Shown here piece by piece: positions 3,453 through 7,472 of a DNA stretch of 64,000 nucleotides. This DNA comes from Hymenobacter montanus (GTDB lineage: Bacteria; Bacteroidota; Bacteroidia; Cytophagales; Hymenobacteraceae), in NCBI RefSeq assembly GCF_014699115.1, contig NZ_JACXAD010000005.1, forward strand, positions 62,001-126,000, given 5' to 3'. The stretch's first letter is position 1; every line of letters starts with the position of its first letter. The notes under the pieces were generated by a model. It was not told the DNA's origin. It was given only the letters and a program-made list of their open reading frames with translations, and did no database searches. A program made the translations under genes and the position numbers.

Positions 3453-3674
3453 GACCACGGATTCGCTCGGATTTTTCGGATTACACGGATTTTGTGGACG
3501 ATTTTAACGTGTGCTTGATGCCCTGGTTTGGGTAGATATCTTGGGTCGATAGAGTTAGCAACTTGCATTTTGCATTGGGTTAGATAATCACGCAACCACT
3601 ACGAAAAATCAGCAGGCAGGCCGCATCGTCCACAAAATCCGTGTAATCCGAAAAATCCGAGCGAATCCGTGGTC
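3453..3674. repeat. Perfect 49-bp inverted repeat pair of an interspersed element
   Basis: The 49 bases at 3453-3501 are the exact reverse complement of 3626-3674, with a 124-base spacer. The unit reads as alternating 'ATCCG' words (for example CCGTGTAATCCGAAAAATCC). A further partial copy lies at about 3425-3450. One arm ends on the stop codon of the O-methyltransferase gene (3673) and the other lies just upstream of the start of the beta-barrel gene. Similar 'atccg' units are known to be scattered in many Bacteroidota genomes; that statement is from general knowledge. Confidence 0.85.
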
Positions 3675-4317
3675 AGAGTTTCCGCAGTAGCAGCAACCCA
3701 TCGCGCAGGGGCAGAAAAACCGGCTCTACCCGCGCGTCCTGGGCCATTTTGTCGTTGAAAGCTCGGACTAGCGGCGTATCCCTGTCGCTCTTCCTTACCT
3801 CGTGTCCGGGCAGCACCTTGCCGCTCCACAGTACGTTGTCGACGATGAGGAGCCCGCCCGGGCGCACCTGCCCGATTACTGCCTCAAAATAAGCGTCGTT
3901 GCTGCGCTTGTCGGCATCAATAAAGACCAAGTCCCAGACTTCATCGACCAGGCCCGGCAAAACATCGAGGGCCGCCCCGATGTGCAGCCTGATTTGAGCC
4001 GTTTTACCGGCCGCGGTCACGTAGCGCCGGATGCGCGCTTCTCGCTCGGGGTCTATTTCAATGGTGTGCAACAGCCCGTCGTGGGCCAGGCCCTCGGCCA
4101 GGCATAGCGTGGCATAGCCGCAAAACGTGCCGATTTCGAGGACGCGGCGGGGGCGCATAAGCTGGCTCAACAGGCTCAGGAACCGGCCTTGCACGTGGCC
4201 GCTGCTCATGCGCGGCAGCAGGGTTTGCAGGTGCGTTTCGCGGGTGAGCTGGGCTAAGAGGGGCGGCTCGGGCGCGGTGTGCTGCTCGGCGTAGGCTTGA
4301 ATGGGGTCGTGGTGCAT
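3673..4317 (-). CDS. Class I SAM-dependent O-methyltransferase
   Basis: A 214-residue cytosolic enzyme that transfers a methyl group from S-adenosylmethionine to a hydroxyl group, in the caffeoyl-CoA/catechol O-methyltransferase family. The SAM-binding glycine region is 'VLEIGTFCGYATLCLAEGL' (about residues 59-77), the acidic ribose-binding residue follows in 'LHTIEIDPER', and the metal/substrate Asp region is 'DLVFIDADKRSNDAYFE' followed by 'GGLLIVDNVLWSGKV'. Length is normal for the family. It is transcribed in the same direction as the SRA and M16 genes upstream but separated from them by the 4337-4433 repeat. The natural acceptor cannot be read from the sequence. Confidence 0.9.
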   Translation of the reverse strand: MHHDPIQAYAEQHTAPEPPLLAQLTRETHLQTLLPRMSSGHVQGRFLSLLSQLMRPRRVLEIGTFCGYATLCLAEGLAHDGLLHTIEIDPEREARIRRYVTAAGKTAQIRLHIGAALDVLPGLVDEVWDLVFIDADKRSNDAYFEAVIGQVRPGGLLIVDNVLWSGKVLPGHEVRKSDRDTPLVRAFNDKMAQDARVEPVFLPLRDGLLLLRKL

Positions 4318-4336
4318 TGTTTAGACTTTTGTGTGT

Positions 4337-4433
4337 TTTCACCGCAGAAGACGCTGAAGGTTACGCAGAGGAAACGCAGAAGAACGTCCTCTGCGCTCCT
4401 TCTGCGAAACCTTCTGCGTCCTCTGCGGTGAAA
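4337..4433. repeat. Palindromic 'cgcagag' interspersed repeat
   Basis: A 97-base imperfect palindrome. The left arm begins TTTCACCGCAGAAGACGC and the right arm ends CTGCGTCCTCTGCGGTGAAA; in between are several CGCAGA/TCTGCG words. It sits in the gap between the SRA gene and the O-methyltransferase gene. Elements with this wording are widespread in unrelated bacterial genomes (general knowledge). It can form a long hairpin in RNA and could act as a weak terminator or mRNA stabiliser. Confidence 0.8.
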
Positions 4434-4450
4434 CCAACGCTGGTGCACAC

Positions 4451-4900
4451 TCACCTAATCGCCCGCAGCCGAAACACAAACACCCGAAAGCCCGACTTGC
4501 CCGGCCCGTAGCTGGAGCCCACAATCTGGTACAGCCCCTCGTAACGGTACACCTCCGGCCCGCCATCCTCCGCCGGCACCTTACGCAGTACGCGCACGGG
4601 CCGGCCGGTTTCCTGGCTGGTTAGCAGAGCGAGGTTAGTCCCAGCGGCTATTTGGTCGGTGGTCTGTTTGCCGGTCTTCGGGTCGCGCCCGCCGCTGCCC
4701 GCGTACCGGATCTCCTCCTCGTCGAACTGGTCGTCTTCGTACTGACCGGCCAGGACGATGCTTTCGGTCCCCAACTGCTGGGTGCCGCAGACGCCCGCCC
4801 GGCGCGGCCGGTGCACCCCGCTAAAAGCCAGCTCCAGCCGGTTACGAAACGTGTCGCCGGGCCGGTAGCTACCCACGTGGCCAAATACGGGCCGGTTCAT
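4451..4900 (-). CDS. Stand-alone SRA-YDG domain protein
   Basis: A 149-residue protein made almost only of an SRA-YDG domain, the fold that flips out and reads 5-methyl- or 5-hydroxymethylcytosine in UHRF1 and in modification-dependent restriction enzymes. Visible landmarks: 'FGHVGSYRPGDTFRNRLEL' (residues 6-24), 'SGVHRPRRAGVCG', 'SIVLAGQYEDDQFDEEEI', 'YAGSGG', 'TNLALLTSQETGRPVRVLR', and 'YRYEGLYQIV'. No HNH or other nuclease domain is attached, unlike most bacterial SRA proteins. Its ATG overlaps the stop of the upstream M16 peptidase gene (ATGA, 4897-4900), so the two are translationally coupled. The family call is solid; what modified base it reads, and why it is paired with a peptidase, are unknown. 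Confidence 0.85.
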   Translation of the reverse strand: MNRPVFGHVGSYRPGDTFRNRLELAFSGVHRPRRAGVCGTQQLGTESIVLAGQYEDDQFDEEEIRYAGSGGRDPKTGKQTTDQIAAGTNLALLTSQETGRPVRVLRKVPAEDGGPEVYRYEGLYQIVGSSYGPGKSGFRVFVFRLRAIR

Positions 4901-6135
4901 TTTGCTTCCGGCACGTACTGCAGCACGCTCAAGTGCTCGTCGGTCAGCACCTCGTTGGCCATATCCCGCAGCTCCGTCGCCGAAATCCGCTCGATTTTCC
5001 CGAAAATTTCACTTAACGGCTCCACCCGGCCCAGGTCGAGGGTGCTTTTGCCGAGGAGCTGCATCAGGCCGCTGTTGCTTTCCTCACTCATGGCGAGCTG
5101 GCCCATGAGCTGGTGCTTGGCAGTATGCAGCTGATTGACGGTCAGTAGCTTTTCGCGCAACAGCCTGAGTTCCTTCTGCACCAGGCCCAGGGTGCGTTTC
5201 ACCTGCTTGCCCTCGGTGCCGAAATAGATGCCGAACAAGCCCGTGTCGGTATAGGGCGAGTAGGTGCTGTCAATGGTGTACACGAGGCCATACTTTTCGC
5301 GCACGGCCAGGTTAAGGCGCGAATTCATGCCAGGCCCGCCGAGGATGTTGTTCAGCATGAAAAACGGGATACGGCGCGGGTCAGCAATGGAGTAGGCCGG
5401 CCCCCCTACCAGGCAGTGGGCCTGCGAGATAGGCCGGGTTTCGACCTGCACCTTGCGCTGGTAGTCGCCCACCGGGCGGCGCACCCGCGGGCCCAGCTTG
5501 GCCGGCAGCGGGGCCAAAAACTTGTCGGCCAAGCGCTTCACCTCTTTGAACGGCAGGTTGCTCACCGAGCTGAATACCAGCCGGTCAGTGCGCATCTGCT
5601 CCTGCAAAAAGGTATGAAAATCGGCGCTCTGAAAGCGGCTCACGCTCTCGCGGGTTCCGAGGATGTTCACCCCCAGCGGATGGTCGCCGAATACCACCGC
5701 GTCAAAATCATCGACAATGGCATCTTCCGGGGCATCCTGGTACATGCTCATCTCTTCCAGAATTACGCCCCGCTCCTTTTCTACCTCCCGGCCGGGAAAC
5801 ACGGAGTTGAAGGTCAGGTCCGTCAGCAGCTCAAATGCGCGCTCGAAGTGGGTGCTGAGCAGGGCGGCGTAAAAGCAGATTTTCTCCTTGGTCGTGTAAG
5901 CGTTGAGCTCGCCACCCACCATTTCGAGCCGGTTGAGAATGTGAAACGACTTGCGTTTCTTGGTTCCCTTGAAAGCCATGTGCTCCCAGAAATGAGCCAG
6001 GCCCTGCTGGTGCGGAGCCTCGTCGCGCGAGCCAATGTCGAGCAGGAAGCCGCAATGCACAATTTTAGTATGAAGTACCTGCTTGTGCAGCAGGCGGATA
6101 CCATTAGGGTATTCGTGGATGTCGTAATCGGGCAT
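4897..6135 (-). CDS. M16 family zinc metallopeptidase
   Basis: A 412-residue peptidase of the pitrilysin/insulinase family. The inverted zinc motif HxxEH is His48-Phe-Trp-Glu51-His52 (LAHFWEHMAFKGTKKR), and the third ligand is expected at the Glu pair in 'GVILEEMS' about 75 residues later. An inactive-type C-terminal M16 domain follows ('NILGGPGMNSRLNLAVREK'). I start at the ATG at 6133-6135 (MPDYDIHEYPNGIRLL); 18 further codons upstream are open but do not resemble the family. There is no signal peptide, so it is probably cytosolic. The gene overlaps the SRA gene by four bases. Confidence 0.9.
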   Translation of the reverse strand: MPDYDIHEYPNGIRLLHKQVLHTKIVHCGFLLDIGSRDEAPHQQGLAHFWEHMAFKGTKKRKSFHILNRLEMVGGELNAYTTKEKICFYAALLSTHFERAFELLTDLTFNSVFPGREVEKERGVILEEMSMYQDAPEDAIVDDFDAVVFGDHPLGVNILGTRESVSRFQSADFHTFLQEQMRTDRLVFSSVSNLPFKEVKRLADKFLAPLPAKLGPRVRRPVGDYQRKVQVETRPISQAHCLVGGPAYSIADPRRIPFFMLNNILGGPGMNSRLNLAVREKYGLVYTIDSTYSPYTDTGLFGIYFGTEGKQVKRTLGLVQKELRLLREKLLTVNQLHTAKHQLMGQLAMSEESNSGLMQLLGKSTLDLGRVEPLSEIFGKIERISATELRDMANEVLTDEHLSVLQYVPEAK

Positions 6136-6398
6136 AAGAAAAACAAAGGTACCGGGCGCGGCGCGTAATGCGGAACGAGGAATCAACAAGACGGAGACCG
6201 GACAAGTTGTTAGCTGCTCCGTCTCCCTTCGTCAGAGCGCGTCGGGAACGTTGGTCAGGTAGGGGGCTGGACCGGCGCGCGTCTGTAATGTGTGAGGCAG
6301 CCTGCTTTCGCGGCGCCGACGTGGGCATTGGCCGGGCCCAGACGGCGGGCCGTCACAGACGCCAAGCTGGGCCTTACCGACGGGTCAGCACCTCTAGC

Positions 6399-7472
6399 TT
6401 ATTCTTCTTTCTTCATCGTGGCCAGCAGCTGGTCTACTTCTATGGTGTAGGCGCAGCGAAAGTGCCCCAGCGGGCAGGCGCCGTGCCCGTGCAGGCCACA
6501 GGGCTTGCACTCCAGCGGCTCGGTGGTTTGTACCACAAACGACACGGGCGACAGTGGCCCAAACCCAAACTCCGGCACGGTGCTGCAAAAAACCGCCGTA
6601 ACGGGCGCGCCCACCGCCGAGCACAGGTGCAAGGGCGCCGAGTCGTTCACATAGTTCATCACCGCCCCGCGCATGAGGGCCGCCGAGGCCAGCAGATTCA
6701 TTTTGCCGGCTAAGCTGCTCACGTTTTCGCGGTTGCTGGCCGCGGCGAGTCGTTCGCAGGCCGCCGCGTCGGGTGGCCCACCCAACAGGTACACCCGGAG
6801 TTCGGCGGGTAGCGCCAGGAGCAGTTCCCGCCATTTTTCTTCGGGATACTGCTTCGTGAACCATACCGAAGTGGGGGCCAGGCACACGTACGGGCCCGCC
6901 GCGGCATACGCGGTTGCTAAAGCCTCGTCGGCAGCCGACGGATAAAGCCGGGGCGGGGGCAAGGCAGAACGAGCATCAAGCGTGGGGGCATTCCCGCCCG
7001 ACCACGCTGCGTGCTTCGTGCCTGACTCCTCATTAAATGCCGGGTCCAGCAGGCTCAGGTTGCGCGCTACTTCGTGGGTGCCGTCGCCGATAACGTGGCG
7101 TACGCGCCGCGTAAAAAACCGGCTGAAGGGGTTTTTGGCAAACCCCACCCGCTCCGGCGCCCCCGAAAAAGCCGTCAGAAAACCCGTGCTGGCAAAGCGC
7201 TGCAAGGTTACGACCCGCCCGTAGCCAGTGGCCCGAATTCGACCAAGCAACTGCCACAGGTTGGCGTACTTGCGGTGCTTCTTATCCCAAACCAATACCT
7301 GCCGCACGTGCGGATGGCCCGCCAACAGGCTTTCGTTGCCGCGCCGCACCAGTACGTCGACGGGCGTGGCTGGCTCCGTTTGGTGCAAGTGTTCCAGCAG
7401 GGCCGTGAGTAAAATCACGTCGCCGATAAAAGCAGTTTGAATGAGTAAGGTGGCGGGTAGCTGAGCAGGCAT
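6399..7472 (-). CDS. Glycosyltransferase family 9 (heptosyltransferase-like)
   Basis: A 357-residue GT-B enzyme of the ADP-heptose:LPS heptosyltransferase family. The N-terminal domain opens with 'LLIQTAFIGDVILLTALLEH', the hallmark of GT9, and the C-terminal domain has 'VCLAPTSVWFTKQYPEEKW' and the nucleotide-sugar-binding 'YVNDSAPLHLCSAVGAP'. It probably adds a sugar to lipopolysaccharide core or another surface glycan on the cytoplasmic face. It stands alone here rather than within a glycan gene cluster. The preceding 260 bases (6136-6398) show no gene. Confidence 0.88.
   Translation of the reverse strand: MPAQLPATLLIQTAFIGDVILLTALLEHLHQTEPATPVDVLVRRGNESLLAGHPHVRQVLVWDKKHRKYANLWQLLGRIRATGYGRVVTLQRFASTGFLTAFSGAPERVGFAKNPFSRFFTRRVRHVIGDGTHEVARNLSLLDPAFNEESGTKHAAWSGGNAPTLDARSALPPPRLYPSAADEALATAYAAAGPYVCLAPTSVWFTKQYPEEKWRELLLALPAELRVYLLGGPPDAAACERLAAASNRENVSSLAGKMNLLASAALMRGAVMNYVNDSAPLHLCSAVGAPVTAVFCSTVPEFGFGPLSPVSFVVQTTEPLECKPCGLHGHGACPLGHFRCAYTIEVDQLLATMKKEE

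Follow-up and report, generated by a model that had tools for sequence, protein, structure and literature searches.

What does an SRA domain do in a bacterium when it is attached to no nuclease and its gene lies directly behind that of a peptidase? Bacterial SRA domains are presented as guides of restriction nucleases in the available portions of four papers (PMC6212794, PMC7461809, PMC7641849, PMC12707154), and none of these portions describes a stand-alone bacterial SRA protein. No title on such proteins appeared among the matches listed in a literature search whose coverage leaves most subscription papers outside (for one query, the best 20 of 1,065 matches), and nothing was found there on Hymenobacter together with an SRA domain. 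The window analysed here, a stretch of 64,000 nucleotides from Hymenobacter montanus, contains a gene of this kind.

A complete standalone SRA gene under purifying selection

The minus-strand order at the locus is M16 peptidase, SRA and O-methyltransferase, and the space between the two outer genes is referred to below as the slot. The features are as follows:

4897..6135, minus strand: M16 zinc peptidase gene, 412 aa (PF00675, E 2.6e-35; PF05193, E 3.8e-28), old neighbour of the slot
4897..4900, minus strand: ATGA overlap of the M16 stop and the SRA start, seen in the sequence
4451..4900, minus strand: standalone SRA (SAD/SRA-YDG) gene, 149 aa (PF02182, E 8.1e-38; AF2 model and Foldseek)
4334..4436, no strand given: imperfect palindrome of 103 bp, two 50-nt arms, 84% complementary, between the SRA and O-methyltransferase genes
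3673..4317, minus strand: O-methyltransferase gene (PF01596, E 5.7e-48), opposite border of the slot

A first-pass annotation of this DNA had described a complete stand-alone SRA protein without a nuclease, overlapping the M16 gene by ATGA, and both observations were confirmed. The SRA frame starts at ATG, and its SAD_SRA domain is full-length: the PF02182 match covers residues 5-146 of the protein and positions 2-144 of the 148 in the profile, and its score of 129.9 bits against a curated cut-off of 30.7 places the protein in the family. The frame stops after the domain, leaving no room for a nuclease domain, and none was found in it, so that the C-terminal HNH nuclease domain of SRA-HNH Type IV enzymes is absent; across the whole window, four HNH queries run by tblastn gave nothing better than E 0.059. 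The gene is the single PF02182 match in its own genome assembly (5.37 Mb, 47 contigs, 98% complete). The AF2 model, built from 8 sequences, had a mean pLDDT of 90, and Foldseek returned TagI (6ghs) as its top match (E 2.9e-14, TM 0.82 by query length), followed by UHRF1-DNA complexes; TagI was thus the best PDB match by predicted fold and also by sequence.

The GC3 of the SRA gene (0.81) was similar to that of neighbouring genes (0.74-0.79), and homologues in relatives reached 87% identity, the named ones at 79-87% being those of H. glacialis, H. terrenus, H. lapidarius, H. jeongseonensis, H. cyanobacteriorum and Hymenobacter sp. BT770. In comparison with 12 relatives, dN/dS values were 0.07-0.26 for the SRA gene (with dS at 0.7-1.9, close to saturation), 0.04-0.08 for the M16 gene and 0.07-0.16 for the O-methyltransferase gene. 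These data indicate that the frame is a real gene, not a chance one, and that it is under purifying selection.

The SRA gene was probably inserted between two old neighbours

The arrangement around the gene was compared in 106 genus loci, fetched from the 110 SRA-positive genus genomes other than the window's own; four fragmented assemblies (G090, G094, G095 and G096) fall outside this count, and in the first three of them tblastn placed SRA beside M16. In 106/106 loci the SRA gene followed M16 in the same orientation, and the O-methyltransferase gene came next on that strand in 105, the contig ending first in the remaining one. The first-pass annotation had asked whether the pair is conserved, naming an SRA gene far from the peptidase gene in close relatives as the result that would speak against their coupling. 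Order and strand were indeed kept throughout, and so distant a placement was for the most part not seen, but the exact ATGA (-4) overlap with a standalone SRA was seen in only 11 of the 106 loci, besides the window. The M16 gene and the first SRA gene overlapped in 18 loci, a class that includes doubtful long overlaps (G025, G052, G079) since start codons were picked by rule; they were 0-30 bp apart in 35 and 31-400 bp apart in 42. Distances above 400 bp occurred in 11 loci, with an intervening gene visible in seven of them.

Of 20 genomes outside the genus, 18 had a match to M16 (E <= 1e-60). The O-methyltransferase gene followed it in the same direction at a distance of 32-508 bp in 13 of these 18 loci, and an SRA match at E 1e-5 was obtained in none of the 18. 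In a different family of the same order the standalone SRA gene is located elsewhere, and two genomes there have M16 with no adjoining SRA. Overall, SRA beside M16 was met only in Hymenobacter and one sister genus, other families having SRA elsewhere, and the pair was not found in gene contexts beyond this slot. The simplest reading is that M16 and O-methyltransferase are old neighbours and that SRA genes were inserted between them later; the M16 overlap looks like a consequence of this insertion, standing outside the mechanism. A functional partnership of SRA with the M16 peptidase, their expression being coupled through ATGA, would agree with the invariant order and strand in the genus and with the overlap seen in the window and in closely related genomes. 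It is nevertheless very improbable and was discarded on outgroup synteny and gap counts: the border pair exists without SRA, the exact overlap is confined to a few loci, the genes can be widely separated, and other families place SRA elsewhere. Of the two explanations that had been offered for the coupling, a regulated protein target or genome packing, the second agrees better with these data, and nothing found supports a tie to the peptidase.

In four genus genomes (L069, L071, L143 and L151) M16 and SRA are separated by about 4.6 kb, within the first 5.6 kb of the locus read in SRA-strand orientation, and this space is occupied by genes on the opposite strand. Judged by eye, they encode a KaiC/RecA-like ATPase, a protein like a PAS-histidine kinase and a small protein of the KaiB type. 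On the other side of the window SRA gene, the 18-base core of the palindrome occurs at three places in the genome, including 4334-4436, against none for a backward control; it is possibly a palindromic repeat or a putative transcription end.

Standalone and nuclease-fused SRA genes share the slot

Quantification of the slot contents in the 106 genus loci revealed a standalone SRA gene only in 73, a standalone gene together with a TagI-like SRA-HNH gene in 22, and SRA-HNH only in 11, so that SRA-HNH was present in 33 loci. The 95 standalone-bearing loci include G025, with a truncated SRA, and G107, at a contig end, both left out of trees and residue counts. The HNH motif of the longer slot proteins was recognized by eye, and the one protein scanned matched PF13391 HNH_2 (E 1.3e-13). 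When four HNH queries were run by tblastn (E 1e-4), slots not already called SRA-HNH gave no match, and a missing nuclease encoded nearby was therefore rejected. Of eight loci fetched from the sister genus g5, seven contained a standalone SRA in the same slot and one an SRA-HNH gene; in genus g3, six fetched SRA-HNH genes had no nearby M16 or O-methyltransferase match. Among the nine SRA-less genus genomes the slot was readable in five: G075, G076 and G102 have about 29 bp between the border matches, G073 has about 180 bp, with a 14-residue stub as its only SRA match, and G032 has about 790 bp with no SRA. In the other four (G093, G097, G099 and G108) both border genes were not found on one contig. 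Overall, the slot gives the impression of an ancient site for sensing modified DNA where most present-day lineages have the lone reader and nothing else.

The presence of both genes at 22 loci would be expected if the standalone protein were an antidote or decoy shielding modified sites from the neighbouring SRA-HNH nuclease. However, the 73 loci with a standalone gene and no SRA-HNH in the slot speak against such a role, as does the pattern of loss, the standalone gene being missing in 11/33 SRA-HNH carriers vs 5/78 genomes that have a readable slot and no SRA-HNH (Fisher p 6e-4, rising to 1.3e-3 when the truncated G025 is scored as a loss; the genomes are related, hence this comparison is a lead only). 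More frequent, not less frequent, loss in carriers fits overlapping roles of both genes, and we consider the antidote improbable.

A quick tree of 141 SRA domains, built on few columns and with many forks open, united 97 of the 101 standalone rows with three from SRA-HNH proteins (G007, G080 and G117; SH-aLRT 98). The four other standalone proteins (G060, G061, G063 and G085) grouped with the slot's 31 SRA-HNH rows (35 rows, SH-aLRT 100), and can be read as probable cases of later HNH loss, the root of the tree not being fixed. These four, together with the truncated SRA of G025 and the stub of G073, show the kind of sequence expected if the window gene were itself a decaying remnant of an SRA-HNH enzyme. 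That origin is scarcely credible for an intact gene under purifying selection that belongs to the large standalone group, and in a genus where slots not called SRA-HNH gave no HNH match in the tblastn search above.

Near-universal in the genus, rare in the phylum

SRA (PF02182) was detected in 111/120 genus genomes, the window's own included, vs 9/395 genomes sampled across the phylum, three of those nine from Hymenobacter itself, and in 9/244 genomes of a distant class. The rarity across the phylum is like that of a defence gene; the near-universal presence in the genus is not, being unusual for such genes, and argues against a defence-gene reading. The PADLOC models, scanned against the SRA, M16 and O-methyltransferase proteins and one SRA-HNH, gave no match to the window SRA at E 0.1; the O-methyltransferase matched the model mads_2 (E 2e-15), which we take as probably general methyltransferase similarity. 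A phage origin was rejected: tblastn at E 1e-3 gave no match in 50,697 phage records, the single match in 72,556 plasmid records was a protein in which an HNH motif could be recognized by eye, and both loci found in IMG/VR were SRA-HNH, with an integrase-like gene nearby (also by eye).

In another family of the order, a cytidine-deaminase-like gene comes directly after a standalone Arg-thumb SRA gene in four loci. It has a signal-peptide-like start, and PF00383 was found in the two proteins scanned (L203 and L207). The pairs are the following:

L203 5610-6805: SRA and deaminase-like gene, 4-nt overlap
L204 5662-6911: SRA and deaminase-like gene, 4-nt overlap
L206 5118-6508: SRA and deaminase-like gene, overlapping (longest frame)
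L207 5766-6987: SRA and deaminase-like gene, about 20 bp apart

A typA-like gene (named by eye) comes after the deaminase-like gene in L203 and L204. In L210, of the same family as these two, the SRA-HNH gene at 5764-6686 is broken into two frames; it has Gln at the thumb and likewise precedes a typA-like gene.

A conserved pocket and a thumb residue that mostly differs between the classes

Alignment with TagI located the residues that would contact a flipped base, encoded in the window as follows:

4799..4801, minus strand: Arg34 codon, thumb position predicted to fill the flipped-base gap (TagI Gln35)
4739..4741, minus strand: Tyr54 codon, wall of the flipped-base pocket (TagI Tyr55); Tyr in 159/159 aligned rows
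4730..4732, minus strand: Asp57 codon, pocket carboxylate (TagI Asp58); Asp in 158/159 aligned rows
4703..4705, minus strand: Tyr66 codon, second pocket wall (TagI Tyr67); Tyr in 159/159 aligned rows

The window SRA thus has the complete Tyr, Asp, Tyr pocket, whose residues are near-constant in the standalone and fused classes alike. The position that differs is the thumb, for which the role of TagI Gln35 is given as a prediction in the available part of PMC6212794. Position 34 was the best class-separating column (group-weighted overlap 0.003, next best column 0.10). In the main alignment, Arg was found there in 105/108 standalone and 0/51 fused proteins, the latter having Gln (35), Tyr (8), Ile, Val and Met (2 each), Gly and Ala (1 each). 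Second copies of the same genome's locus and the split gene L210 are outside this alignment. New full-length finds from the distant class had Arg in both standalone proteins, and one Gln and one Arg in fused ones; two fused proteins from IMG/VR had Gln (by eye), giving totals of 107/110 standalone and 1/55 fused proteins with Arg, in rows that mostly belong to one clade. Of other sequences, L240 and L241 have no thumb region and L242 gave no SRA match to the profile. Two standalone proteins of the distant class, L238 (1479-1962) and L239 (1014-1965; both minus, strand coordinates), combine an Arg thumb with Phe at the first pocket Tyr.

In the mixed groups of the tree the residue goes with the form: the three fusions inside the standalone group have Gln and the four HNH-less rows have Arg. 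An independent-pairs test of thumb vs form found three pairs on supported branches, on average 2.5 changing the same way and 0 the other way (median p 0.5); thumb and form each need five changes on the tree, and the test cannot reach significance. An absolute Arg rule was rejected: Gln is present in the standalone proteins G027, G675 and G618, the two outside the genus belonging to other families and G618 also lacking Asp57, and Arg is present in the fused L237, whose HNH looks intact. Nor does Arg mark every nuclease-free reader, since the aligned eukaryotic proteins SUVH9 and UHRF1 have Gln and Val (the latter presumably V446) at this position, and the arginine is thus dispensable for a non-cleaving reader.

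No C5-cytosine methylase match in the window's genome or in most of the genus

The first-pass annotation had also proposed looking for a genome-encoded cytosine methylase, and none turned up: PF00145 (C5-cytosine methylase) gave no match in the 98% complete genome, in a search that was positive in 10/14 control genomes. Among the 120 genus genomes, PF00145 was matched in 45 and had no match in 75, and the methylase was present in 38/95 genomes with a standalone-SRA locus vs 4/11 without one. The absence of a match in the own genome and in most of the genus argues for a non-self target; what the protein binds is probably foreign DNA or another base. A protein that reads cytosine methylation of the host, in the manner of UHRF1, was considered as well, and a UHRF1-like fold and pocket are in its favour. 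A PF01555 (N6/N4) methylase match, intact at one site of the genome and interrupted by a stop at another, leaves N4mC conceivable as a host modification. Nevertheless, a reader of host 5mC was rejected because no writer was found; the counts in genomes with and without a standalone SRA also speak against it, and a reader of host cytosine methylation is improbable, on a par with the antidote role.

SRA-HNH carriers, from which an attack on 5mC DNA is expected, had a C5-cytosine methylase no less often than other genomes (14/33 vs 28/73), so that avoidance of these methylases by SRA-HNH was not seen.

A proposed non-cleaving binder of modified DNA

The window SRA is best read as a sister protein of a Type IV restriction enzyme, devoid of a nuclease and retained as a binder of modified DNA. 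The fold and the Tyr-Asp-Tyr pocket like those of TagI and UHRF1, the high frequency in the genus vs the phylum, the occupation of the identical slot by SRA-HNH in about a third of the loci (33/106), the grouping of most standalones apart from the slot's SRA-HNH clade and the low dN/dS all point this way, and we favour, if tentatively, a lone SRA protein that binds modified, probably foreign, DNA and does not cleave it. According to the available part of PMC7461809, lone SRA domains are monomeric and, when isolated, show stronger in vitro binding to 5mC than to C. In the proposed mechanism, a single domain, akin to the reader module of the TagI-like SRA-HNH (Type IV) enzymes, would take a modified cytosine such as 5mC or 5hmC from foreign double-stranded DNA and flip it into its Tyr-Asp-Tyr pocket; the arginine thumb would hold the site with no cutting, and this core-genome binder may thereby mark or block modified DNA.

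The main rival to such a binder, unlikely but weightier than the other alternatives, is that the Arg-thumb SRA reads a base other than 5mC or 5hmC, damaged or differently modified, in a core housekeeping or repair-related role. It would account for the core-like distribution, the scarcity of C5 methylases in the genus and the Arg in place of Gln, and also for the pocket-side position of TagI Thr68, which is Ser or Ala in 86/96 standalone-clade proteins and Thr in 40/40 fused ones. But Asp57 and both Tyr residues, which serve cytosine in TagI and UHRF1, are kept; the four HNH-less proteins grouped with SRA-HNH retain Thr; no repair gene is visible in the slot; and five readable slots have no SRA gene at all.

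Three kinds of known systems come closest to the window SRA. The TagI/ScoA3IV SRA-HNH enzymes have in common with the window SRA the pocketed domain and, in relatives, the slot itself, but the window protein is without HNH, has Arg and not Gln at the thumb and is near-universal in its genus. UHRF1/UHRF2 and the SUVH proteins of eukaryotes are likewise nuclease-free SRA readers with the same fold and pocket; unlike them, the window protein is a single small domain with an Arg thumb in a genome with no C5 writer found, and its finger loop is four residues shorter than that of UHRF1 in the alignment. Standalone prokaryotic EVE/ASCH (PUA-like) proteins are, in the available part of PMC7641849, another case of a lone modified-base-binding domain outside a nuclease; theirs is a different domain and sits with restriction-modification or toxin-antitoxin operons, whereas the window SRA sits between peptidase and methyltransferase genes.

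It is possible, though we would not expect it, that across the whole genus the reading portion of a Type IV restriction enzyme has become a core base-reading protein with an Arg thumb and no nuclease; its ligand would then be something other than 5mC made by a host methylase, and perhaps something other than 5mC altogether. A nuclease-free SRA is maintained by selection in a genus where most genomes have no C5 methylase match, which poses the question of what a 5mC reader reads there, and the thumb arginine offers a one-residue handle for probing what the SRA domain reads.
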